Shown one piece after another: positions 2,519-40,662 of a stretch of DNA of 49,902 bases. The DNA comes from Candidatus Kuenenia stuttgartensis. Its GTDB lineage: Bacteria > Planctomycetota > Planctomycetia > Planctomycetales > Planctomycetaceae. The stretch covers positions 1 to 49,902 of the forward strand of contig CAMAXD010000009.1 of assembly GCA_945861975.1 (NCBI GenBank). Direction: 5' to 3'. Position numbers and translations under genes: made by a program. Positions within the stretch are counted from its first letter, which is position 1. Every line of letters starts with the position of its first letter. The notes under the pieces are model-generated. The model worked only from the letters and a program-made list of their open reading frames with translations, was not told where the DNA came from and did not search any database.

Positions 2519-4746
2519 AACTCTTTCGTATTGATCAGAGCCCAGATCAAATCCTGAAATTTTTCCTGACCGGCGCGTTGGGCGTCGACGGGGTTGCCGG
2601 CGGAATCGAGTAACGGTTCAGCCAGGAAATCAACAGCCACTTTCAATTCTTCAGCTTTTGGTTCTCGTGAAAACGCGACCATATAAAGTTCGCGAATTCT
2701 TTCTTCCGGCGGTTTGTCTGATTTGGACAACCGGTCTGCTCGCCCACTTCCCGTTGCCAGTTTCCCTTTGATATCCGCCGCATTCATCAAGTGCAGACTT
2801 TGAGCAAGGCTGGATGACTGAATTCGCTCACACTCACAGACGCTTTCATTTTCCGGGCGACCGAAGACCCTTAGAAAAGGTGAGGCGTTGTTGTAGCTGT
2901 TATCCGGCAATGCAATTGCACGAGTTCCAGCCGGAAGGTTTGGGAAGTCGGTTTTGGCCCCGGTCAGATCGTCGATCGCATCCAGCATCACTTCCGCCTG
3001 AAGTCGACGTGGATAATAACGGGAGTAGTTTTGCACGTCGGCGATGTTATGTTCGTTTGGCGTTGCGCTCAATTGATACGCGTTGGATTGAACGATCACT
3101 TTCACCAGTGACTTCAGATCAAAGTGGCTGTCGATAAAATGTTTTTCCAGAGCGGCCAGCAGTTCAGGATTCGTCGGCGGATTTGAGTCACGAATATCGT
3201 CTTCCGGCTCGATGAGACCTCGTCGGAAGAAATGTTTCCAGTAACGATTCACCAGCGCTTTGGCGAAGAATGGGTTCTGTGGAGAACTCATCCAGTCCGC
3301 AAGTTTCAGGCGAGGATCTTCGTCCGGGGCAATGGCAGGGATTGCGTCGCCCAGAGCTGCGGGCTTCAAAGACGAACCTGTCTTGATGTTCGTGGCCACA
3401 GCAACGCCACGTTTGTGAAAGATCAGGTCTTCACCGCGAGTCGCCGATGGTTTGCGACCCACCTGAGTAAAGAACGCGGACAGACTGTAATAGTCATCCT
3501 GGCTCCAGCGTTCGAACGGATGATGATGGCACTGGGCACATTGCATGCGCACGCCGAGGAACAGTTGAGCCACATCTTCAAGCTGCTGCTTGGGCTCTTT
3601 GACTCGTTTGTACCACGCCACAGGAGGATTCGCGATCACGGTGCCCGTGGCCGCGAGCAGTTCTCGCACCATTTGATCGTAGGGCTTGTTCGCCAGCAAA
3701 CTGTCTCGCACCCACGCATAGAATGCAAAGTTGGACGTGATATCGCTGGCGTCGTCACGGCGATTCTTTAGCATCGCCGTCCACTTGTTCGCGAAGAAGT
3801 CGGCATACTCGGGACTGCTCAGCAAACGATCGATGACATGATCGCGTTTGTCAGCGGCTGTATTTGCGAGGAACGTGCGAGATTCTTCTTCGGTCGGTAA
3901 GCGGCCGGAGATATCCAGCGTAATACGGCGGAGGAATGTGGCATCGTCGCAAACGGGCGAAGGCGGAACTCCGATCTCTTTGAGATTTGCAAACACCAGA
4001 TCGTCAACGAAGTTCTTTGACGGCGGAACATTCTCAACGGGTGCTCCCAGCGGGATTGATGCGTTGAAGACAGTGATTCGTCCATGGTAGCGAACCATGA
4101 TGGCCACCTTCCCCGGGATGTCGAGAACTTTTACGAGTCCTCGATCGGACACATCGGCCATGCTCTTATCGTTTGATTCGAACAGAGCCTGTTCGGTCAC
4201 ATCGCGTTCCGAACCATCGGAGTATTTCGCGACGGCCTTGAGTTGTTGCTCGGTGTTTCGCTGGACGGTGCCTCGTCCGGGTTGAACATCCACGGCAAGC
4301 AGTTTGGGAGCCACTTCGCCATCGAACGTTGCCCCCTGACGAATCCAGTTCAGGAGGATCTGATAGGCGTGCGAATCGGCCTTGATTCGGAGTCCCCCGC
4401 CGTGCGGAGTTTTTCCGGACGCTTTGGTCAGCAGGAGGCTGTTTTCGGGAACGGACAGGAACAGTCGGCGCCCGCGATTTTCTTTGACGATGTGTTCGTA
4501 GTCTTCGCCCGGTTCGAAGCCCAGCAGCGACAGATGAAAACCTTTTTGGCCGCCGCCCGCTTTGGCGTGGCATACTCCGGCGTTGCAACCGGCTTTGGTC
4601 AGCACGGGAACGACATCGTTCACGAAGCTGATGGCCGGAGAAGATTCCTGAGCGTGAATGGAGCCCGGAAGATTGGCGGACGTCATGACGACGACGCACA
4701 GAGATAAACGACGAACGTGGTCGCCGAGTGGTAGCTTTGAGGCCAT
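2503..4746 (-). CDS. DUF1549/DUF1553 planctomycete cytochrome-type secreted protein
   Basis: A 747-residue exported protein of the planctomycete-specific DUF1549-DUF1553 family. It starts at ATG 4746 with an N-terminal hydrophobic segment ending near SIHAQE. In order: an N-terminal planctomycete cytochrome-like region with CNAGVCH, a Big2/Ig-like region (QLKAVAKYSDGSERDVTEQA), DUF1549 (FLRRITLDISGRLPTEEE) and DUF1553 (FFAKALVNRYWKHFFRRGL). A canonical CXXCH haem-attachment motif (CAQCHHHPF) lies between the two DUFs. The family is usually linked to periplasmic c-type cytochrome function and to secreted sulfatase or polysaccharide loci, but the reaction is not established. Its usual DUF1501 partner is absent here; the next gene downstream encodes a PPC-domain protein instead. 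Confidence 0.92.
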   Translation of the reverse strand: MASKLPLGDHVRRLSLCVVVMTSANLPGSIHAQESSPAISFVNDVVPVLTKAGCNAGVCHAKAGGGQKGFHLSLLGFEPGEDYEHIVKENRGRRLFLSVPENSLLLTKASGKTPHGGGLRIKADSHAYQILLNWIRQGATFDGEVAPKLLAVDVQPGRGTVQRNTEQQLKAVAKYSDGSERDVTEQALFESNDKSMADVSDRGLVKVLDIPGKVAIMVRYHGRITVFNASIPLGAPVENVPPSKNFVDDLVFANLKEIGVPPSPVCDDATFLRRITLDISGRLPTEEESRTFLANTAADKRDHVIDRLLSSPEYADFFANKWTAMLKNRRDDASDITSNFAFYAWVRDSLLANKPYDQMVRELLAATGTVIANPPVAWYKRVKEPKQQLEDVAQLFLGVRMQCAQCHHHPFERWSQDDYYSLSAFFTQVGRKPSATRGEDLIFHKRGVAVATNIKTGSSLKPAALGDAIPAIAPDEDPRLKLADWMSSPQNPFFAKALVNRYWKHFFRRGLIEPEDDIRDSNPPTNPELLAALEKHFIDSHFDLKSLVKVIVQSNAYQLSATPNEHNIADVQNYSRYYPRRLQAEVMLDAIDDLTGAKTDFPNLPAGTRAIALPDNSYNNASPFLRVFGRPENESVCECERIQSSSLAQSLHLMNAADIKGKLATGSGRADRLSKSDKPPEERIRELYMVAFSREPKAEELKVAVDFLAEPLLDSAGNPVDAQRAGQEKFQDLIWALINTKEFLFNH

Positions 4747-5164
4747 ATCGTTACCGCTTCAGGCCAGAGGGAAGGATGCAGTCAAGAATGACTACACGAA
4801 AATCAGGAGGGAGTCCGCGGGGCCGGACCACTTAAATCTAATCGGAAAGCAGGGCATTCGTCTATCGTCAAACTGATTTTAAGCCCGGATTCTGGAATCG
4901 TCCTGCGGCAGTACTGCGGAGAGCCCTGTCTAATCGGAAGAACCGGAATGATGTTTTTTGTTCACAAATTGAGGATTGAAAGCCAGCATTCCTGGGGGTT
5001 GACTGGCTGTCGCCCGATTCCCATCCCCCTCATTCTAAAGCCGATTCGAAGTTGCTCCGTGAGTACCGCTTGAAAGCCTGCTGGCGTCTGTTTACGCTCA
5101 GCAACAGAGCCTGTCAGCAACAGAGCCTGTCAGCAAGAAATCTGTTCATCGGTTGGAGAATTCT
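4747..5164. other. Divergent intergenic region
   Basis: This 418-bp region separates the minus-strand DUF1549/1553 gene from the plus-strand lipoprotein gene, so promoters for both should lie here. I see no confident -35/-10 pair. Near its right end is a 16-bp tandem repeat. No conserved reading frame was recognised. Confidence 0.5.
5099..5136 (+). repeat. 16-bp tandem repeat, 2.4 copies
   Basis: The unit cagcaacagagcctgt occupies 5099-5114 and 5115-5130, followed by a partial copy at 5131-5136. It lies 28 bp before the start codon of the lipoprotein gene, inside the probable 5' untranslated leader. Confidence 0.85.
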
Positions 5165-7753
5165 GTGGTCATTTCAGCCACTCGGACGCCTCTGCGGCGG
5201 TTGTTTGTCGACGCCTTCCTGCCAGCGATGCTCCTTTTTAGCGTTGGATGCGGCGGTGGGGAAGAGGCGGCCACCGATTCTGCGGCTCCATCGGATGCCG
5301 CTCCTGCCGCTCCTGCAGGTGGTGCGGCGGCTGGCATGCCAGCGGGCGAGCCAGCTGGCATGGGGGCAGCGGGAGCTCCGGGAATGATGCCAGGAATGAT
5401 GCCGGGAATGATGCCGCCAGCCGGAGCGGGGGGCAGTGCAAACGCTGGCGCGCCGGGGCAAGCGGCAGGAATGGTTCCCGGTGCAGCGTATCCGGGGGCG
5501 GCTTATCCTGGAGCTGAACCGGGTTCCGCGTATCCCGGGGCAGTCGGAAATACTCAACCTCAGATTCCGTCGCGGCCGGAAGACGTAGCAACATGGACTG
5601 ATGAGCAGCTTGTTGATGCCGTTCACGAACGAGATCCAAAACTGCTGAATGCCATTGATAGTCGAGTAAAGTTGTCGCCGGGTGATCCAAAGGTGGCGGA
5701 AATGCTCACAAGCCTGTTGATGGCTCTGGCAAATCCTCGCGTTCCCGCTTCACCCAATCAGCAGGCAGGAGCGGCCGGTTATCCGGGTGATCCAGCAGCA
5801 GGTTATCCCGGAGCCGCCTTCCCGGGCAGCAACGGTGCCGCTGGTGCGATCACGCCAGGAATGGTGCCGGGAGCAACGCCGGGAGCAGGCACTCCGGCTT
5901 TGCAGGCAACGCCACCAGCTCAGGGTTCAATTCGACGAAGGAAGCAGGACGATCTTGCCGTTGACTCTATTTCCCTGATGTTCCTCGAATCGGCTACTGC
6001 GTATTATCAGGGTGGCGGAGTCGGAGCGATGGCAGGGAAGAATATTCCAGGAGCCATCGGCGTATCGGCACAGAATCCAGCCAACGCGGGGGCAGCAGGT
6101 GCTCAGATTGGTTCCGCTGCCGCGATGCCTGGCGGGGCGATGCCTGCAGGCTACCCCGGCGCAGAATATCCAGGAGGAGCCTATCCGGGTGCGCAGCCCG
6201 GAATGCCCGGTGCCGGGAACGCTGCTTCAGGCCAATTGGCAGAGTTCCAATTGATTGAACGGATCGTGGACGGACTTATTCGAAATGGTTCTCCCGGAGC
6301 GTGGCAGACGATTTATGGAATCGCGGCTCAGACGGTCAAGACGCCACTCCCGCCGGGATCCGGTGCGGAAATTGTTGCTCACGGTCTCTACCGAAATATT
6401 GACAGCAACCCTACGATGATTGAACCCATTCTGCTCTCTCTGATTGACGGTTCAGCACAATTGCCGCTCGAGAGTCGTTCTGCGGCATTAAGTGTCACCG
6501 CTCAGATTTCTGGACTTGCCGCAGACAAGTTCACGGGATTCCGGCCTGTGTCGAGTCCCGCGACAGGAAGCGGACAGTTTGGTTTGCCGGGAATGCCCGG
6601 CGGTGGAATGCCGGGGCAGGCCGCAAATTCTTACCCCGGAGCTGAGGGCCAGGCCGCTGGAGCTGCGGGATATCCTGGTGCCGCTTATCCCGGAGCGGCA
6701 GGAGCCGAGGGCTATGCTGCAATGCCGGGCGGAGCAATGCCGGGCGGAGCAATGCCGGGGACTGGTATGAACGGAACTACTCCCGGTGGAATCAATGCTG
6801 TGGGAAAACCGCTCATTTCTGATGCTGCTCTGATGCGTGCCGCCAGTTTTCTTTGGGGGCCGAAATGCGTCGATGCCCTGGTGAAACAACTGGAGGCCTC
6901 TACTGATATCGGGATCGTCGAAGGATTTGTCGGGGGAGGCGACTTTGTTCGTATCGCAGCTTCTGTTCCTAATGATCGAGTTCGCAGGGCGCTGGCTGGC
7001 TTGTTCGAGAAGACGGCTCCGGCGAGTGTAGGCCAACTTGGTAAAACGAAGTTCTTTTCGACAGCCGTTCATGATCCCGGCATGTTGATCTCACTGAAGT
7101 CTCTGCCGAGGCCAAAGCCGACTCGCACGGAGGCCGCTCAGGGTATGCCGATGGATGCCTGGTCCACGGCGAGTCTTGAAGTTGTGTTGTCTCTTCGCGA
7201 TCGCATGAGAGCACTTTCGGCCACACCTGGAAAGCTGACACCGGTGACAGAGAATCTTCCGATTCGACTGCATAAGAATGCTGTGGCTGAATTCTATGGT
7301 GTGCTGACTCTGCCGGGACCGGCGGGATTGGATCTGAACGAATCCGCACCATCGCCAACAAAAATCTATTACGCTCGCACGTCGTTCACGCCGGAGAAGC
7401 CCAAAGATCAACAGGATCTGGCCGAGCATTACGAGTCTCGGGCAACTGGAATTAAGCGAGCCAGTGAAGCGCAGGGCGTTCTGTTGTGGATCGACGGATT
7501 TAAGGCGACTCAGACCGGAGCAAAACGCACCGCAGATGTGCTTGTTCAATCGTCAGCGGGTGGTGGTGGCGTTGGTGCCGCGGCGGGCGGATATGGAGAA
7601 TCGGGTGCTCCCGGAGCCCCAGCGGGATACGGTGCTCCAGCCGGAGGTGGAGCTACCGGAGCGTTCTCCATTGAAATCATTGTGGTCGAAACCAGCGATG
7701 CAAAATCGCCTGCTGCTGACGACGCAAAAGCGGAAACCGCTGCTAAGAAATGA
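5165..7753 (+). CDS. Large lipoprotein with YPGA / MPGG low-complexity repeats
   Basis: I do not recognise a named family. The GTG at 5165 is chosen because GGAG (5155-5158) sits 6 nt upstream; a TTG at 5153 is in frame but overlaps that site. The N-terminus has basic residues, a hydrophobic stretch and a lipobox LLFSVGC (Cys 29), so a lipid-anchored envelope protein is expected. Ala/Gly/Pro-rich segments with YPGA, YPGG, MPGG and PGMM units alternate with ordinary helical blocks, for example around residues 140-190, 350-440 and 540-810. These blocks contain no catalytic motif I recognise. The C-terminus returns to Gly/Ala/Pro-rich sequence and ends in an acidic-Lys tail. The repeats resemble elastin- or collagen-like spacers. 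The gene stands alone between divergent and convergent neighbours. Function unknown. Confidence 0.85.
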   Translation: MVISATRTPLRRLFVDAFLPAMLLFSVGCGGGEEAATDSAAPSDAAPAAPAGGAAAGMPAGEPAGMGAAGAPGMMPGMMPGMMPPAGAGGSANAGAPGQAAGMVPGAAYPGAAYPGAEPGSAYPGAVGNTQPQIPSRPEDVATWTDEQLVDAVHERDPKLLNAIDSRVKLSPGDPKVAEMLTSLLMALANPRVPASPNQQAGAAGYPGDPAAGYPGAAFPGSNGAAGAITPGMVPGATPGAGTPALQATPPAQGSIRRRKQDDLAVDSISLMFLESATAYYQGGGVGAMAGKNIPGAIGVSAQNPANAGAAGAQIGSAAAMPGGAMPAGYPGAEYPGGAYPGAQPGMPGAGNAASGQLAEFQLIERIVDGLIRNGSPGAWQTIYGIAAQTVKTPLPPGSGAEIVAHGLYRNIDSNPTMIEPILLSLIDGSAQLPLESRSAALSVTAQISGLAADKFTGFRPVSSPATGSGQFGLPGMPGGGMPGQAANSYPGAEGQAAGAAGYPGAAYPGAAGAEGYAAMPGGAMPGGAMPGTGMNGTTPGGINAVGKPLISDAALMRAASFLWGPKCVDALVKQLEASTDIGIVEGFVGGGDFVRIAASVPNDRVRRALAGLFEKTAPASVGQLGKTKFFSTAVHDPGMLISLKSLPRPKPTRTEAAQGMPMDAWSTASLEVVLSLRDRMRALSATPGKLTPVTENLPIRLHKNAVAEFYGVLTLPGPAGLDLNESAPSPTKIYYARTSFTPEKPKDQQDLAEHYESRATGIKRASEAQGVLLWIDGFKATQTGAKRTADVLVQSSAGGGGVGAAAGGYGESGAPGAPAGYGAPAGGGATGAFSIEIIVVETSDAKSPAADDAKAETAAKK

Positions 7754-8533: not shown

Positions 8534-10174
8534 CTAATGCCCTGCGACAGCGGAAATCCCTTCCAGAAATCCCTGAAGCTGACGGCTTCGGACCGGATGC
8601 TGAAGCTTGCGAACGGCCTTGGCTTCAATCTGGCGAACTCGTTCACGAGTTACCTTGAAGATGCGACCCACTTCTTCCAGCGTGTATGTGTAACCATCGC
8701 CCAAACCGTAACGCAGCTTGATGATTTCGCGTTCGCGGTAGGTCAGAGTCTTCAGGACAACATCGATCTTGTCCTTCAGCATTTCAGAAGCGGCATTGCT
8801 GACCGGGCTGTCGTTACCACGATCTTCCAGGAAGTCACCGAACGCGCTGTCGTCGCTTTCGCCGATCGGCTTGTCCAGACTGATTGGCTGGCGAGAAATT
8901 CTCATGACACGACGAGCTTCATCAATCGGTACATTGGCCACTTCAGCCATCTCTTCAACGGATGGTTCGCGGCCAATTTCCTGCAGAAGAACTCGAGCAG
9001 CTGCTCGCAACTTGGTCATCGTTTCGATCATGTGGACAGGCACACGAATCGTACGAGCCTGGTCTGCGATCGCACGAGTAATCGCCTGACGAATCCACCA
9101 TGTGGCATAAGTGGAGAACTTATAGCCGCGGCGATATTCGTACTTATCGACGGCTCGCATCAGGCCGGTGTTGCCTTCCTGAATCAGGTCGAGGAACGTC
9201 ATGCCACGATTGCGGTACTTCTTGGCGATAGAAACCACCAGACGCAGATTGCCCCCGGAGAGATCCCGCATCGCTTTGTCGTATTCGCCATGTCGCTGGA
9301 GAATGGCCTGCATCTGAGCCGCCATTGATTCCGGCGATACGCGAGTCAGCAGGATCAGATCGTTCAGCTCTTTCTGCAGGTGCCGACGTTCATCGACAGC
9401 CGAGGTGAGATTACGCAGGCTGCAGATCTGTTCGTGCAGTTCCGTCATGCGATTGGAAATCTGTTCCAGACGCTTCATGCAGGGCTGCAGACGCTGAGTT
9501 CGCAAGCTCAGTTCTTCCAGCAACGTCACACAGCGACGACGGCGTTCAGCCAATTGATGCTGAATTTCAGTGCGGTTAGATGCGGGCAGGTCAGTGGCCA
9601 GTTTCGCGTAGTCTTCTGCATCGCGTGAGCGAATGTTCTCAATCGTAGCCAGGTTGAAAGGCATACGGCCGAGAATCTGTTCCTTCTCCAGGCTTTCCGT
9701 CATGGAAACTTTGATCGTACGATCGAACGGAAGTTCTCCGCGATGTACTTTGACCAGAGTTTCATGGCAGAAATTCAGAGCGAACTCGTTGCTCAGCAGA
9801 GCACGACGGAAGCGGCGACGAGTGACTTCGATTTGCTTGGCGAGGAAGATTTCTTCGTCACGCTTCAGCAGAGGAATCTCGCCCATCTGGCTCAGATACA
9901 TCCGAATCGGATCTTCGGTGCCGCGTGAGTCGTCATCGATACGGATTTCCGGCTTGCGTTTTTTGCGAGTGGCCAGCGGTTCGGAAGCAACTTCCTTCAC
10001 TGGATCCACCACCAGCGGCATGTTGAGTTCTTCGAGATAGGTGATCAAGTGATCCAGGAAGAGCGGATCGGTGGCTTCATCAGGCAGATAGGAATTGACC
10101 TGGGAGAAGTAAAGATGGCCCTGCTTGATTCCGGTTTGGATCAGGCTTCGCAGGCTTTCATCGAGGCATTGCAT
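8534..10174 (-). CDS. rpoD: RNA polymerase primary sigma factor (sigma-70)
   Basis: A 546-residue housekeeping sigma factor that directs core RNA polymerase to promoters. Region 1.2 has [18 protein letters not shown] long helical non-conserved region follows. Regions 2.1-2.4 carry [37 protein letters not shown] and [17 protein letters not shown]. Region 3 contains [12 protein letters not shown]. Region 4.2 ends with the helix-turn-helix [23 protein letters not shown] 10174 has GGAG about 8 nt upstream. It lies 129 bp downstream of dnaG on the same strand, preserving the dnaG-rpoD part of the classic macromolecular-synthesis operon without rpsU. A terminator follows at 8434-8462. Identity is secure. 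Confidence 0.97.
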
Positions 10175-10246
10175 AGGAGTGTCTCCGAGGAATACTTTTT
10201 CGACTGATTGATTCGTAGTGTGAGACTTGGCGTCAATTCATTTTCA

Positions 10247-10269
10247 ATTTGAAATCTGAAATCTCAAAT
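10247..10269. repeat. Second copy of the rpoD-flanking AT-rich repeat
   Basis: The plus strand reads atttgaaatctgaaatctcaaat. Its reverse complement shares atttgagatttcagattt with the hairpin at 8491-8520. It lies in the 129-bp spacer between dnaG and rpoD, so the same short element brackets the rpoD gene. Confidence 0.8.
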
Positions 10270-10303
10270 GACAGGGATCCGATTCTCTGATGGCAGGTGG
10301 CTG

Positions 10304-12208
10304 CTATTTCATTTCCGTGGGATTTCCCATCTGACTTTGACGAAATTTGTGAAGGCGTCGAAGTGCGTCTATTGTCCCGTCGTCGAGTGTGCTCATGGAC
10401 TGTGCCGGTTGAGCCAATAATTGTTTCGACACGAGGTTCAGTCGTTTTTCTCGCCGTTCCAGAATGGGGCGGAGGACCCGTTCCAGATGCGATGGTGCCG
10501 AAACACCACCGGCTTTTTCATGAGCGTTCGGCTGATCGTTCATGAGTTTCAGGATTCCTTTCTCCTCGGCCGAATCCACCACTGCGTTGATCAGGCTCAG
10601 AAGATCTGAGTCTGATTCAGCGGCAATGATCATTCGACCCAACTCCGGAAGGTCCCCGTCTTCCTTCCAGACATCAATGCACAAATCCAGCAGCCGCTGG
10701 TGTCGCACATTCTCAAAATCATCCGCCCCGATCTGGTGCCGGATGACATCAATTGATTCAGGACAAGTTAAGATGATTTCTAATACCTCCCGTTCTGCAC
10801 GTTCGAAGGCATTTTCGACTCGGGTTTTCAATTCGACAGGTTGCCTTTCGGCACCACGTCGCGTGAACCCCTTTTTCTGTGTCTGACCCCGCAATTCTTT
10901 CAATTGCTGGCGAGCCATCCGTTCATCCACCTGGACACGCCCGCAGACATTCCGAAGAATCATATCTTCTCGAATACTGCCAGCCAGCCCTTGTGAGGCT
11001 GCCAGGAACTCCATCATCTGATTCAAAACCTGCTGACGACCAGCAATCGTCGTAATGCTGATTCGCTGCAGAATCGACTGCAATTTGTATTCCCACGCCT
11101 CACTGGCTGATGCCGTAAGGGCATAGAATTCTTCTGCTGTGTGATCTTCCAGATAGTCCGCCGGATCTTTACCCGACGGGACGCTCAGGATTCTCAGGTC
11201 CAGATCCTCGGCCAAAAACCGTGAAATGGATCGTTCTGCGGCATCCTGCCCTGCTTTGTCCGAGTCATAAACCAGGACAACTTTTTCTGCGAATCGCCGC
11301 AGAAATCGCACATGATCTTCGGTCATTGCTGTCCCGAGTGTGGCGACAGCGTTCGTAATTCCAGCCTGATGACAGGCGATGCAGTCCATGTATCCTTCAA
11401 CTATTATGGCCGTCTTGCTGCGCCGAATTGTTTCTCGAGCTCGATCGAACGCATAAAGTGTTTGACGCTTATGAAAGATAGCACTTTCCAGACTGTTCCA
11501 ATATTTCGCATCACTTTCAATGTTGCCCCCCGGCAACACTCGTCCTCCGAATGCAACCGGTCGGCCTCGCTCATCAATGATGGGAAAGACCAGGCGACCG
11601 ACTAAATTGTCAAAGTATCCAGGACCATTGTTTCGCTCCTGAATCAAACCGGCCGCTACCAGTTGAGCTGGAGTAAAGCGTGCGCGAGCCTGTTCAAGAA
11701 ACCAGTTCCAGTCCTCTGGGTGATACCCCAGTCGGAAGTTCCGCACAGTATCTTCCGAGAGTTTTCTCCTTTTGACGTACTCCCGGGCGTTCTCTGCCTT
11801 CGCGCTGGTTCGCAGCGTTGAATGCATGAGATTGACAGCCCACTCGACTACCGCGAGCGAATCGGTCTTTTTGAGCTGATTGTCTGAAGTCGCTTCATCA
11901 CGCTTCTTTTTGGGAACCTCCAGCCTCGCTCGGCGCGCTAGAGACTCCATCGCTTCCGGGAAAGGAAGTTTTTCCATCTCCATGACCCAGCGGAAGCAGT
12001 CTCCCCCCTGATCACAGACCCAGCACCGATAAGTTTGACGATCCGGATAAACGTGAAACGAAGGATTCTTGTCGTCATGGAACGGACACAATCCTAAAAA
12101 ATCACGTCCTCCATGAATTGGCTTCAGTGAGACTGTTTCAGACACCAGATCCACAAGATTGGTGCTGGACCGAACCAGTTCCTTGAAGTCATCCCCAAAA
12201 CCAACCAC
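10304..12208 (-). CDS. dnaG: DNA primase
   Basis: A 634-residue primase that makes RNA primers at the replication fork. The N-terminal CHC2 zinc finger spans about residues 40-72 (CPFHDDKNPSFHVYP, then YRCWVCDQGGDCF). The catalytic core has the segment VFPIIDERGRPVAFGGRVL, and the TOPRIM domain shows AIIVEGYMDCIACHQAG and VVLVYDSDKAGQDAAERS with its metal-binding acidic residues. The C-terminal part is helical, as expected of a helicase-binding domain. The start is GTG 12208 with GGAG upstream on the minus strand. It is probably co-transcribed with rpoD downstream. The length is normal for bacterial DnaG. Confidence 0.96.
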   Translation of the reverse strand: MVGFGDDFKELVRSSTNLVDLVSETVSLKPIHGGRDFLGLCPFHDDKNPSFHVYPDRQTYRCWVCDQGGDCFRWVMEMEKLPFPEAMESLARRARLEVPKKKRDEATSDNQLKKTDSLAVVEWAVNLMHSTLRTSAKAENAREYVKRRKLSEDTVRNFRLGYHPEDWNWFLEQARARFTPAQLVAAGLIQERNNGPGYFDNLVGRLVFPIIDERGRPVAFGGRVLPGGNIESDAKYWNSLESAIFHKRQTLYAFDRARETIRRSKTAIIVEGYMDCIACHQAGITNAVATLGTAMTEDHVRFLRRFAEKVVLVYDSDKAGQDAAERSISRFLAEDLDLRILSVPSGKDPADYLEDHTAEEFYALTASASEAWEYKLQSILQRISITTIAGRQQVLNQMMEFLAASQGLAGSIREDMILRNVCGRVQVDERMARQQLKELRGQTQKKGFTRRGAERQPVELKTRVENAFERAEREVLEIILTCPESIDVIRHQIGADDFENVRHQRLLDLCIDVWKEDGDLPELGRMIIAAESDSDLLSLINAVVDSAEEKGILKLMNDQPNAHEKAGGVSAPSHLERVLRPILERREKRLNLVSKQLLAQPAQSMSTLDDGTIDALRRLHKFRQSQMGNPTEMK

Positions 12209-12297
12209 AGTGAGCTCCGACGTCGATCACCCAAAGTAAACTCAAAACCAGCGATCCGTCAGGCAATCGGAACCACTCTATATTGTCCATGGCTCAG

Positions 12298-38418: not shown

Positions 38419-38868
38419 CAGACTTTCACTATTTTGGCTATGAGGGGCGGGCAGATTTGGCTACGCGGGGCGGGCAGACACTTTGGTCGAGCAACTATTT
38501 CGGCCCGACCAGATGAAGGCCGGCACTGCAAAGAGAAACCAGTCAATTGAAATGAGATCTTGAAAACGCACGATTCTAGCCGGACCGCGCCAGGTTTCTA
38601 TCGGCCAGAGCAAGCTGCCGACGGTTTCCTGCTGGGAAAGCATGCCGATTGGACCGGACCTTTTATTGATGTGTTCGAGGGTTCTCGGAATGAAATGGGC
38701 CGAATTCCTTGCAAGTCTGGTGCGTCCCTGGACAATTGCCGCGCCCCGCAGTTCCAAGGATGGTGACTTTGCTGCCTTCTCCCACCAGTGCCATGCCCGG
38801 AAACAGGATCCGGTCCACTGCAACATGCAGACGCCCACTCGTCTGACCATGAGAGTGAAAGAGTTGAC
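38419..38868. other. Divergent argB-transporter intergenic region
   Basis: This 450-bp region between divergent genes should hold both promoters. It contains a 23-bp tandem repeat (38433-38478) just upstream of argB. A 129-codon minus frame at 38461-38850 has no recognisable features and is not called. Confidence 0.5.
38433..38478. repeat. 23-bp tandem repeat upstream of argB
   Basis: The unit tttggcta-yg-mggggcgggcaga occurs at 38433-38455 and 38456-38478, differing at two positions. It lies 15 bp before the argB start codon, in the probable promoter/leader, and could affect expression. Confidence 0.85.
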
Positions 38869-40662
38869 ATGTCATCCCTGAACGCACCTGGCTCCTCAGG
38901 TTCATCTGCAACTGTCGGCAAAACCGCTGCTGAAGAAACCTATTCTCCTCAGCCGGGCACGTCCCATATGCCTGCCTGGACTGTGGGCGAACTTCCGGAA
39001 GCCCCCCGGTTTCAGTGGTCAAAGCTCGCTTTGATGCTCGGGCCGGGATTGGTTATGGGCGGAGCTGCCATCGGAGGCGGAGAATGGCTCACGGGCCCCT
39101 TGGTGACTGCACGCTATGGCGGTGCCATGCTGTGGTTAGCCACATTGAGCGTGATCTTTCAGGTCATCTACAACGTGGAGATCAGTCGCTACACACTGTA
39201 CAGCGGCGAACCGATCTTCACCGGAAAATTTCGAATTGGTCCACATCCGCTGTTCTGGCTGGGGCTCTACCTGGTCCTCGATTTTGGATCGGTCCTGCCC
39301 TACCTCGCGTCGAACGCTGCGATTCCGGCCGCGACCATGATCCTTGGTCGGATTCCTGACACCGTTAACAACCCGGACCATAAATCACTGGTGCTGGGAC
39401 TTGCGATTGCGATCTTCGTGTCCGTGTTTATTCCTCTGACCATCGGAGGCAAAGTCTACAACTCCATCAAGGCGATGATGACTTTTAAACTCGTATTCGT
39501 GCTCGGGCTGTTGGTGTACCTGGCGGTGTGTTATTCCGACATGTCGACATGGAAGGAAATTTGCTCCGGGTTCGTGAAGTTTGGCAACGTTCCGGTGATG
39601 CCTGTGGAGGATGTCAACAAAAATGGAAAACAGGATCTCGCTGAAGACATGAATGGCAACGGTGTTCTTGATGAAGGTGAGGATCTTAACAAAGACGGGA
39701 AGCTCGATGTGGCAGAAGCTCCACATGGCCCGATCGTTGATAATTTGTTTGTCGCGATGTCACAAGGGCGGGACGTTGCGTTCGACTGGACGCTGGTTGG
39801 CATTCTGGCGTCTATGGTTGCGATCTCAGGCAACGGTGGTCTGACGAATACGCCGATCAGCTCATTTACCCGCGATCAGGGCTGGGGAATGGGCAAGTAT
39901 GTGGGGGCCATCCCAAGTCTGGTGGGCGGACATGAGATAGAACTGTCGCATGCAGGTAAAGTTTTTCGAGTCACCAAAGAGTCAATGCAGCGGTGGTTCG
40001 GCTGGATGGCTCATGTGCAGCGTGAGCAGTATCTTGTCTGGCTGCCAGCCTGCTTCGTCGGATTGGCGTTGCCGAGCATGTTGTCTGTGCAGTTTCTGAC
40101 TCGCGGAACCGTTCCCGCGAACAAATGGGAAGCAGCCAGCATGACGGCCGGCGGCGTCAGAGAAGCGGTGGGACCCGCCTGGGGACAGACGTTCTGGTAT
40201 CTGACCCTGTTCTGCGGACTACTGATCCTCGCGACAAGCATGGCGGCGACCGCTGATGGGTTCCTGCGACGCTGGGTCGATGTTTTCTGGACCGCCAGCA
40301 AGCGTCTGCAAAAATGGGACACGCGGCACATTGGACGGCTCTACTTTGGCGTGTTGTGCGCCTACTTTGCGCTGGGACTGACAACACTGATCCTGTTCCA
40401 GAATGGCGAGACGCTGCTGACGACGGCAACCGGCATGTTTTACAATTATGCGTTAGGATTCAGTTGTCTTCACACGCTGGTGGTTAACACGACATTGTTG
40501 CCACAGGAGTTGCGGCCTCGATTGTGGCAGCGAATTTCTCTTGTTCTTGGCGCAGTCTTTTTTCTAACAATCGGTGTCCTGGCGACCTACTCTGCATTGC
40601 CGAACCTGAAGGCAGAAGCCCAGAAGATGTTTGGCAGCAAAGCGAATGTGGCGGCCAAATGA
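38869..40662 (+). CDS. Divergent Nramp-like transporter with EF-hand-like insert
   Basis: A 597-residue, roughly 11-helix inner-membrane protein related to the Nramp family of metal/proton symporters. ATG 38869 is preferred over 38788. A cytosolic N-terminus precedes helix 1 (MLGPGLVMGGAAIGGGEWLT), where classic Nramps have DPGN; here GGGEW replaces it. The helix-6 segment is ISGNGGLTNTPISSF rather than one with MPH. These changes make the canonical metal-binding site doubtful. Between helices about 5 and 6, residues about 248-285 form an acidic insert with three calcium-loop-like units: DVNKNGKQD, DMNGNGVLDEGE and DLNKDGKLD. This is rare for the family as I know it. The gene stands alone, divergent from argB. 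Confidence 0.85.
   Translation: MSSLNAPGSSGSSATVGKTAAEETYSPQPGTSHMPAWTVGELPEAPRFQWSKLALMLGPGLVMGGAAIGGGEWLTGPLVTARYGGAMLWLATLSVIFQVIYNVEISRYTLYSGEPIFTGKFRIGPHPLFWLGLYLVLDFGSVLPYLASNAAIPAATMILGRIPDTVNNPDHKSLVLGLAIAIFVSVFIPLTIGGKVYNSIKAMMTFKLVFVLGLLVYLAVCYSDMSTWKEICSGFVKFGNVPVMPVEDVNKNGKQDLAEDMNGNGVLDEGEDLNKDGKLDVAEAPHGPIVDNLFVAMSQGRDVAFDWTLVGILASMVAISGNGGLTNTPISSFTRDQGWGMGKYVGAIPSLVGGHEIELSHAGKVFRVTKESMQRWFGWMAHVQREQYLVWLPACFVGLALPSMLSVQFLTRGTVPANKWEAASMTAGGVREAVGPAWGQTFWYLTLFCGLLILATSMAATADGFLRRWVDVFWTASKRLQKWDTRHIGRLYFGVLCAYFALGLTTLILFQNGETLLTTATGMFYNYALGFSCLHTLVVNTTLLPQELRPRLWQRISLVLGAVFFLTIGVLATYSALPNLKAEAQKMFGSKANVAAK

Follow-up and report, generated by a model that had tools for sequence, protein, structure and literature searches.

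Tandem calcium-loop motifs of variable number in an Nramp-related transporter of planctomycetes

RESULTS

A gene for an Nramp-related transporter outside canonical Nramp

The window, by which we mean the whole stretch of DNA analyzed (49,902 nucleotides from Candidatus Kuenenia stuttgartensis, contig CAMAXD010000009.1), contains a gene for an Nramp-related secondary transporter of the LeuT/APC type. Both flanking genes lie on the opposite strand, and no operon was found for the window gene. Translation from ATG gives a protein of 597 aa (P0001); a GTG at 38788 is also possible as the start. The features of the gene are as follows.

38869..40662, + strand: Nramp-related (LeuT/APC-type) secondary transporter gene; open reading frame and translation, 597 aa from ATG
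39070..39087, + strand: IGGGEW in TM1, aligned with the canonical Nramp DPGN metal-site motif; profile alignments and conservation
39610..39645, + strand: calcium-loop unit 1, DVNKNGKQDLAE; aligned to the one loop present in most genus relatives
39646..39681, + strand: calcium-loop unit 2, DMNGNGVLDEGE; strict 12-residue loop
39682..39717, + strand: calcium-loop unit 3, DLNKDGKLDVAE; strict 12-residue loop
39826..39855, + strand: SGNGGLTNTP in TM6, presumed counterpart of the MPH region by helix order; conservation

A full-length protein copy with 97% identity is encoded in JAPLOA010000088.1, from a Planctomycetales bacterium MAG whose isolate name begins with LacPavin.

P0001 matched NCBIfam Nramp_1 (NF037982) with 125.9 bits, above the cut-off of 50. 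No Pfam family matched it above threshold, and the Pfam Nramp family (PF01566) gave no match even at E up to 1. Throughout the window genome (G000, 94% complete), PF01566 had 0 matches, with 7 of 14 control genomes positive; a separate match to this family (E 5.7e-70) exists in its sister species, G004. Matches to Nramp_1 in G000 are confined to contigs C129, C60 and C9. A phmmer search of the PDB with P0001 returned no match, and NRMT was not among the matches of the PDB sequence searches. AlphaFold, run on the whole protein with a three-sequence alignment, gave a mean pLDDT of 31, too low for the model to be used.

Canonical Nramp/SLC11 proteins (E. coli MntH and the NRAMP1 and NRAMP2 chains) could be aligned with P0001 over TM1–TM4, weakly in the case of MntH, and share its helix order. 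The window protein differs from them in having GGGE for DPGN, in its lack of a PF01566 match and in an added calcium-loop insert. By profile alignment, GGGE fell on the DPGN of NRAMP2 chain 9f6n (E 0.00062); a weak hhalign alignment placed it likewise on the DPGN of MntH (probability 7.4%, E 0.0048). Both profile alignments stop before TM6, so the pairing of SGNGGLTNTP with MPH rests on helix order. Judged by sequence, the transporter is Nramp-related yet outside canonical Nramp, DPGN being lost and the Nramp match coming from NCBIfam and not from Pfam. An earlier note on this DNA had proposed an Nramp-related protein with its TM1 metal motif replaced, and the Nramp_1 match and the alignment of GGGE on DPGN bear this out.

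At locus L042, a second transporter-like open reading frame (3390-4700) follows the first on the same strand; it is 36.5% identical to P0001 over 452 aa.

Three abutting calcium loops between TM5 and TM6

The insert comprises three loops at residues 248–283 (window 39610-39717), arranged head to tail with zero linker. All three fit the pattern D-x-N-x-[ND]-G-x-x-D-x-x-E perfectly, and each is ended by the Glu at position 12. The array lies between predicted helices five and six (TM5–TM6). In a six-frame search of the window, the pattern D-x-[DN]-x-[DN]-G-x-x-D matched at these three places only, and shuffling of P0001 gave even one strict 12-mer loop in 0 of 20,000 shuffles. When a DNA pattern for two abutting loops was run over the 6.26-Mb genome (94% complete), it found the window array and two places in one open reading frame only; the reversed-pattern control had 0 matches in the same genome. 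In seven related genomes the pattern matched 0 to 4 times per genome, and the control matched none. A pattern scan of viral contigs found 76 stretches, none of which codes for a relative.

The other open reading frame (L167 4369-10563, contig C1 of G000) encodes 2065 aa, was judged by eye to be secreted, and carries the genome's only other abutting calcium-loop pairs.

Calcium-loop-like units in a loop between transmembrane helices had been predicted for this protein, and both the units and their placement hold up. Their description as EF-hand-like survives in part. The 12-residue loop is there; the helix–loop–helix is not, because the loops abut and leave no room for flanking helices, and P0001 has no EF-hand match in Pfam. 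Neither P0001 nor any of seven relatives (five with loops) matched the thrombospondin type 3 or dockerin families of Pfam, even with E values as high as 1 allowed. A PDB search with a seven-loop insert returned four weak calcium-binding matches (best E 0.21). AlphaFold of the insert alone gave a pLDDT of 56, and the geometry was not usable.

Loop number changes repeatedly among close relatives

Of 170 genomes of the family that we searched, 101 had a match with an E value of 1e-60 or lower; a few of these matches are paralogs. The 118 loci were reduced to 95 rows by dropping frames under 480 aa and rows with identical last 400 residues. In a quick tree of core columns only, for which the program warned of long branches among the rows outside the clade, 86 of the 95 rows lay, together with the window gene, on one side of a branch with 98% SH-aLRT support. 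These 86 rows are referred to as the window clade.

Loops were counted with a pattern that fixed D1, [DN]3, [DNS]5 and G6. At least one loop was present in 67 of the 86 rows, in keeping with the earlier expectation that the insert is present in homologs. Counts ranged from zero (19 rows) and one (29) through two (4), three (6), four (14), five (4) and six (3) to seven (7). Every one of the 198 clade loops lies at one TM5–TM6 site, with 0 of 198 elsewhere in the protein. D9 was present in 183 of the 198 and E12 in 97, neither residue being demanded by the counting pattern. The counted span varied in length from 5 to 149 residues. Under parsimony, the clade requires that the insert was gained or lost no fewer than 9 times and that copy number changed 25 times; loop-free L117, for example, is sister to L025 with seven loops. 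Nearer the window species, and leaving aside its sister species, 12 genus relatives could be assessed: 11 have one loop, and the pattern finds none in L039. Three loops occur in the window species and its sister, owing to a 24-residue addition, namely units 2 and 3, which are missing from all 12.

Two further loci bear on the history of the insert. L087 (429-2282, genome G190), a paralog outside the clade, has three loops at the same site, and their wording resembles that of window-clade inserts; the insert was thus gained independently or exchanged between paralogs. L029 and L094, from different genera, have near-identical seven-loop inserts in genes that are otherwise diverged, as gene conversion or a chimeric assembly might produce.

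The glycine-rich motifs have a wider distribution than the loops. In the window clade, [IV]GGGEW occurs in 84 of 86 rows though 19 of the 86 are loop-free, and TM6 has [SA]G-x-GG in all 86. Eight of the nine rows outside the clade combine IGGGEW with no loop; the ninth, L087, combines LAGGEW with loops. We also aligned 34 Nramp-related proteins from planctomycetes, Rubrobacter, Aureimonas, Deinococcus and haloarchaea (alignment A3). All 34 match Nramp_1 at E up to 0.001, and 2 of the 34 match Pfam Nramp. Most have [IL]G[SG]GE in TM1 and [AS]GxGGxxN in TM6. The invariant residues are G58, G71, E72, W89, E104, R107, G113, G323, G338, W379 and R467; they include the Gly-Glu of GGGEW, with E72 at the DPGN position. 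Since this Gly-Glu is invariant and GGGEW is found with or without the insert, GGGEW is one form of a broad Nramp-related motif, independent of the insert. The proposal that GGGEW and the insert together mark one clade is not supported. On these alignments, the insert comes and goes within a GGGEW family and is not its defining mark.

Ligand positions are under purifying selection

Synonymous sites were saturated in several pairs, so we compared pN and not dN/dS. Across 19 close pairs, hand-picked and not all strict sisters, pN was 0.014 at ligand positions (1, 3, 5, 6, 9 and 12, scored only where the pair's first sequence has the motif), 0.121 at the remaining positions of the loops and 0.048 for the core. 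Removal of the L029/L094 pair, with its near-identical insert and diverged core, gave 0.016 for ligand and 0.141 for non-ligand positions. Between the window gene and its 97% identical sister, the insert codons differ by 6 synonymous and 2 amino-acid-changing substitutions, and the latter (M261L and E269D) are both at non-ligand positions. The pattern at the ligand positions looks like that of retained, putative metal-binding loops.

Orientation of the insert

Nramp helix order puts the TM5–TM6 loop outside. With the same helix order in the window protein, its TM5–TM6 loop is probably outward-facing. With helix bounds set by hand, Lys and Arg together number 20 among the 164 residues of predicted inside loops, 9 among the 80 of predicted outside loops (insert loop excluded) and 7 among the 83 of the insert loop; loop charges do not decide the topology. 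By analogy with the LeuT fold, the outer gate presumably lies beside the TM5–TM6 loop.

Gene neighborhoods of the window clade

Neighbors of window-clade genes were clustered in 40 contexts, with counts confirmed by tblastn and with one or two members per kind named by Pfam, except for a divergent protein of about 1,300 aa that has no Pfam name and occurs in 10 of the 40. In 11 of 40, the gene immediately upstream on the same strand encodes a universal stress protein, whether loops are present or not (L121, L124, L125, L136, L175, L181, L182 and L184-L187). Downstream of the transporter is a MotA/ExbB-like gene in 6 contexts and a GFO/IDH/MocA oxidoreductase gene in 3 (L130, L122 and L176, the latter two being 86% and 28% identical to the copy of L130); VTT-domain and SSF genes are neighbors in 4 contexts each. 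The stress protein, MotA/ExbB and oxidoreductase neighbors recur in other genera. At L166, a window-clade locus, the transporter gene on the first-ATG reading has a 4-base overlap with an Fe-alcohol dehydrogenase gene, and a mandelate-racemase-type gene is near.

At L134, a gene for an Fe/Mn superoxide dismutase (4580-5188) lies about 2.7 kb from a window-clade transporter gene, a poor fit with transport of organic acids.

Gene neighborhoods of paralogs and plasmid-borne relatives

For planctomycete relatives outside the window clade, 15 contexts were read (L151, checked by tblastn only, was left out); neighbors were named by Pfam for at least one member per kind and by tblastn for the others, and short-chain dehydrogenases (SDR) by eye. 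Enzymes of organic-acid metabolism were found in 8 of the 15, as a raw count. In five (L152, L155, L157, L160 and L163), genes for 2-oxoacid dehydrogenase E1 and E2 and an SDR adjoin the transporter gene, and four of these contexts also have a cyclase, an FAA hydrolase or a 2-hydroxyacid dehydrogenase. The transporter linked to E1/E2 is an insert-free paralog of the GGGEW type, about 36–39% identical. This recurring cluster of a GGGEW Nramp_1 gene with SDR and E1/E2 genes is probably a unit for uptake and catabolism of an organic acid. A second type of paralog adjoins D-mannonate dehydratase UxuA (L153 and L161), and the paralog at L165 adjoins an FAA hydrolase and an aldehyde dehydrogenase. 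The remaining seven contexts (L148, L149, L154, L156, L158, L159 and L162) lack organic-acid enzymes; at L148, the window genome's own paralog, a GFO/IDH/MocA oxidoreductase gene is 138 bp upstream. The neighborhoods thus make a good case for organic-acid transport by the paralogs, and for the window clade they are only suggestive of it.

A heavy-metal-type P-ATPase gene (10085-12244) lies about 2.5 kb from the Nramp_1 transporter gene of L158, which fits poorly with an organic-acid substrate.

Among seven annotated plasmid regions with Nramp_1 genes, four (L144, L146, L168 and L170) have clear organic-acid genes, the neighbors being Lut/UxaA/PdxA, FAD-(Fe-S) oxidoreductases or L-lactate permease. 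Neighbors of this kind are unclear or negative in L145, L169 and L171; L147 is without annotation. On the Rubrobacter indicoceani plasmid NZ_CP031116.1 (L144), two genes bearing the label 'Nramp family divalent metal transporter' (653-2074 and 6007-7473) lie amid UxaA hydrolase, lactate-utilisation, PdxA and lactate-racemase genes.

PxpB-, PxpC- and PxpA-type genes (Pfam CT_C_D, CT_A_B and LamB_YcsF) are present in the window genome at 3017-5513 of L150, on contig C79, where there is no Nramp_1 gene. Because the Nramp_1 matches are on the separate contigs noted above, G000 shows no operon that links the transporter to 5-oxoproline.

DISCUSSION

Nramp-related outgroups with a diverged substrate site have been placed beside Slc11 (PMC10606218, PMC9606685; excerpts). 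A 2026 preprint, cited here from part of its text, recognizes groups of Nramp-related proteins that are paraphyletic. One of them, 'G-motif 3', contains MntG, a proposed importer of Mn2+; apart from this group and the NRMT-like one, the preprint terms the groups uncharacterised (PMC12873925). By description, the window protein resembles the G-motif groups (MntG/YcsG, PxpT), which are likewise Nramp-related, without DPGN and (going by helix order for the window protein) MPH, and matched by Nramp_1; the available part of the preprint mentions no calcium-loop insert in them, whereas the window protein has one. NRMT Mg2+ transporters (EleNRMT) can likewise be likened by description, being Nramp-related with an altered substrate site (PMC12873925, PMC9606685; excerpts). 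Excerpts of two functional studies disagree on what such proteins carry. B. subtilis YcsG was renamed MntG, its overexpression having raised cellular Mn2+, and the ycsG/mntG operon promoter is bound by MntR (PMC10448178). In C. glutamicum, growth on 5-oxoproline depends on PxpT, which shares 50% identity with YcsG; the authors of that study could not exclude that PxpT transports metal (PMC13274462).

Among the open-access papers listed, none dealt with a calcium-loop insert in an Nramp-type transporter. Calcium loops of the Dx[DN]xDG kind do occur outside EF-hands: as excerpted, the insertion of Tk-subtilisin, which is needed for folding, and thrombospondin type 3 also lack EF-hand helices and are inserted into an existing fold (PMC3123361). 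The window insert is unlike these in its membrane transporter host, its abutting 12-residue units, its position-12 Glu and its range of 0–7 copies. PERCAL insertions of bacterial peroxidases, in the available part of PMC3396595, also place a variable number of short calcium motifs in an enzyme domain, but their motif is G-x-D-G-x5-D-D and they occupy several places in the domain, whereas the window family has one tandem array at one site.

Our favored reading, to which we give a probability of roughly 0.4, is that the protein imports an organic acid and has a calcium-binding loop that is periplasmic, structural and expandable. It would belong to the G-motif type of Nramp-related transporters, most of them uncharacterised, here in planctomycetes, and its core would import an organic acid anion. 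Glycine-rich breaks in TM1 (GGGE) and TM6 (GNGG) would form the substrate site, replacing the metal site. The TM5–TM6 loop, facing the periplasm, would bear the tandem Dx[DN]xDG calcium loops in their repeatedly changed number. These loops would most likely bind periplasmic calcium constitutively, so that the acidic loop would be compactly folded beside the outer gate, and would not act as sensors; the calcium would be structural, in the manner of thrombospondin type 3 or Tk-subtilisin. An organic-acid substrate is suggested by the paralog contexts (8 of 15), the plasmid regions (4 of 7), the neighbors at L166 and PxpT. Counting against it are the mostly non-catabolic neighbors of the window clade, the 7 of 15 paralog contexts that lack such enzymes, the Mn2+ effect and MntR-bound promoter of MntG, and the metal-linked genes at L134 and L158. 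Evidence on the substrate from the window's own clade is thin.

Calcium sensing by the putative loops and metal import by the transporter are possible. For sensing, in line with the calcium-responsive loop of the earlier note, periplasmic Ca2+ on the loops would shift TM6a/TM1b and so switch transport on or off; the loop does connect TM5 to TM6 by the presumed outer gate, and its ligand positions are conserved. Yet the loops number from 0 to 7 within a single orthologous clade, where parsimony has the insert gained or lost no fewer than 9 times and L117 stands beside L025. This is labile for a gating part, and no switching of periplasmic Ca2+ is known in these bacteria. We therefore regard such regulation as unlikely. 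Lability is what a tolerated repeat would show, that is, calcium-loop cassettes growing and shrinking in a permissive external loop with little function; the span of 5–149 residues points the same way, as do the extra 24 aa, which among assessable members of the genus only the window species and its sister have. That reading is quite improbable, however, because constraint is much stronger at the ligand positions than at neighboring positions of the same loops, and because loops are kept in 67 of 86 rows.

If the transporter were instead a true divalent-metal importer, the acidic loop would be an antenna concentrating Mn2+, Mg2+ or Ca2+ at the mouth, and GGGEW/GNGG a new metal site. The NCBIfam Nramp_1 label, the invariant E72 at the DPGN position, the superoxide dismutase and P-ATPase genes near the transporters of L134 and L158, and the rise in Mn2+ on MntG overexpression (excerpt of PMC10448178) all speak for this. 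The Asp and Asn of DPGN are lost, however, organic-acid enzymes occur in 8 of 15 paralog contexts, and PF01566 is matched separately in G004, the sister species, though not in the 94% complete G000; we consider metal import rather unlikely. A broader form of the organic-acid reading would cover the whole planctomycete family: a LeuT-fold organic-acid importer, misnamed a metal transporter, whose 0–7 tandem loops, joining TM5 to TM6a in the periplasm, would form a calcium-binding 'wire', where calcium would tune or stabilize the outer gate and copy number would act as an evolutionary dial for calcium dependence. In this breadth the proposal is doubtful.

Two separate loose ends come together here. 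The first is the expansion of calcium-loop cassettes in the presumed gate-side loop of a secondary transporter; its natural variants with 0 to 7 loops offer a way to test what an appended, putative metal-binding element does to a LeuT-fold carrier. The second comes from the neighborhoods, which suggest that organic acids may be the cargo of part of a large group now annotated 'Nramp family divalent metal transporter'. Were this true, automatic annotations would be corrected, and it would bear on the disagreement between MntG and PxpT.
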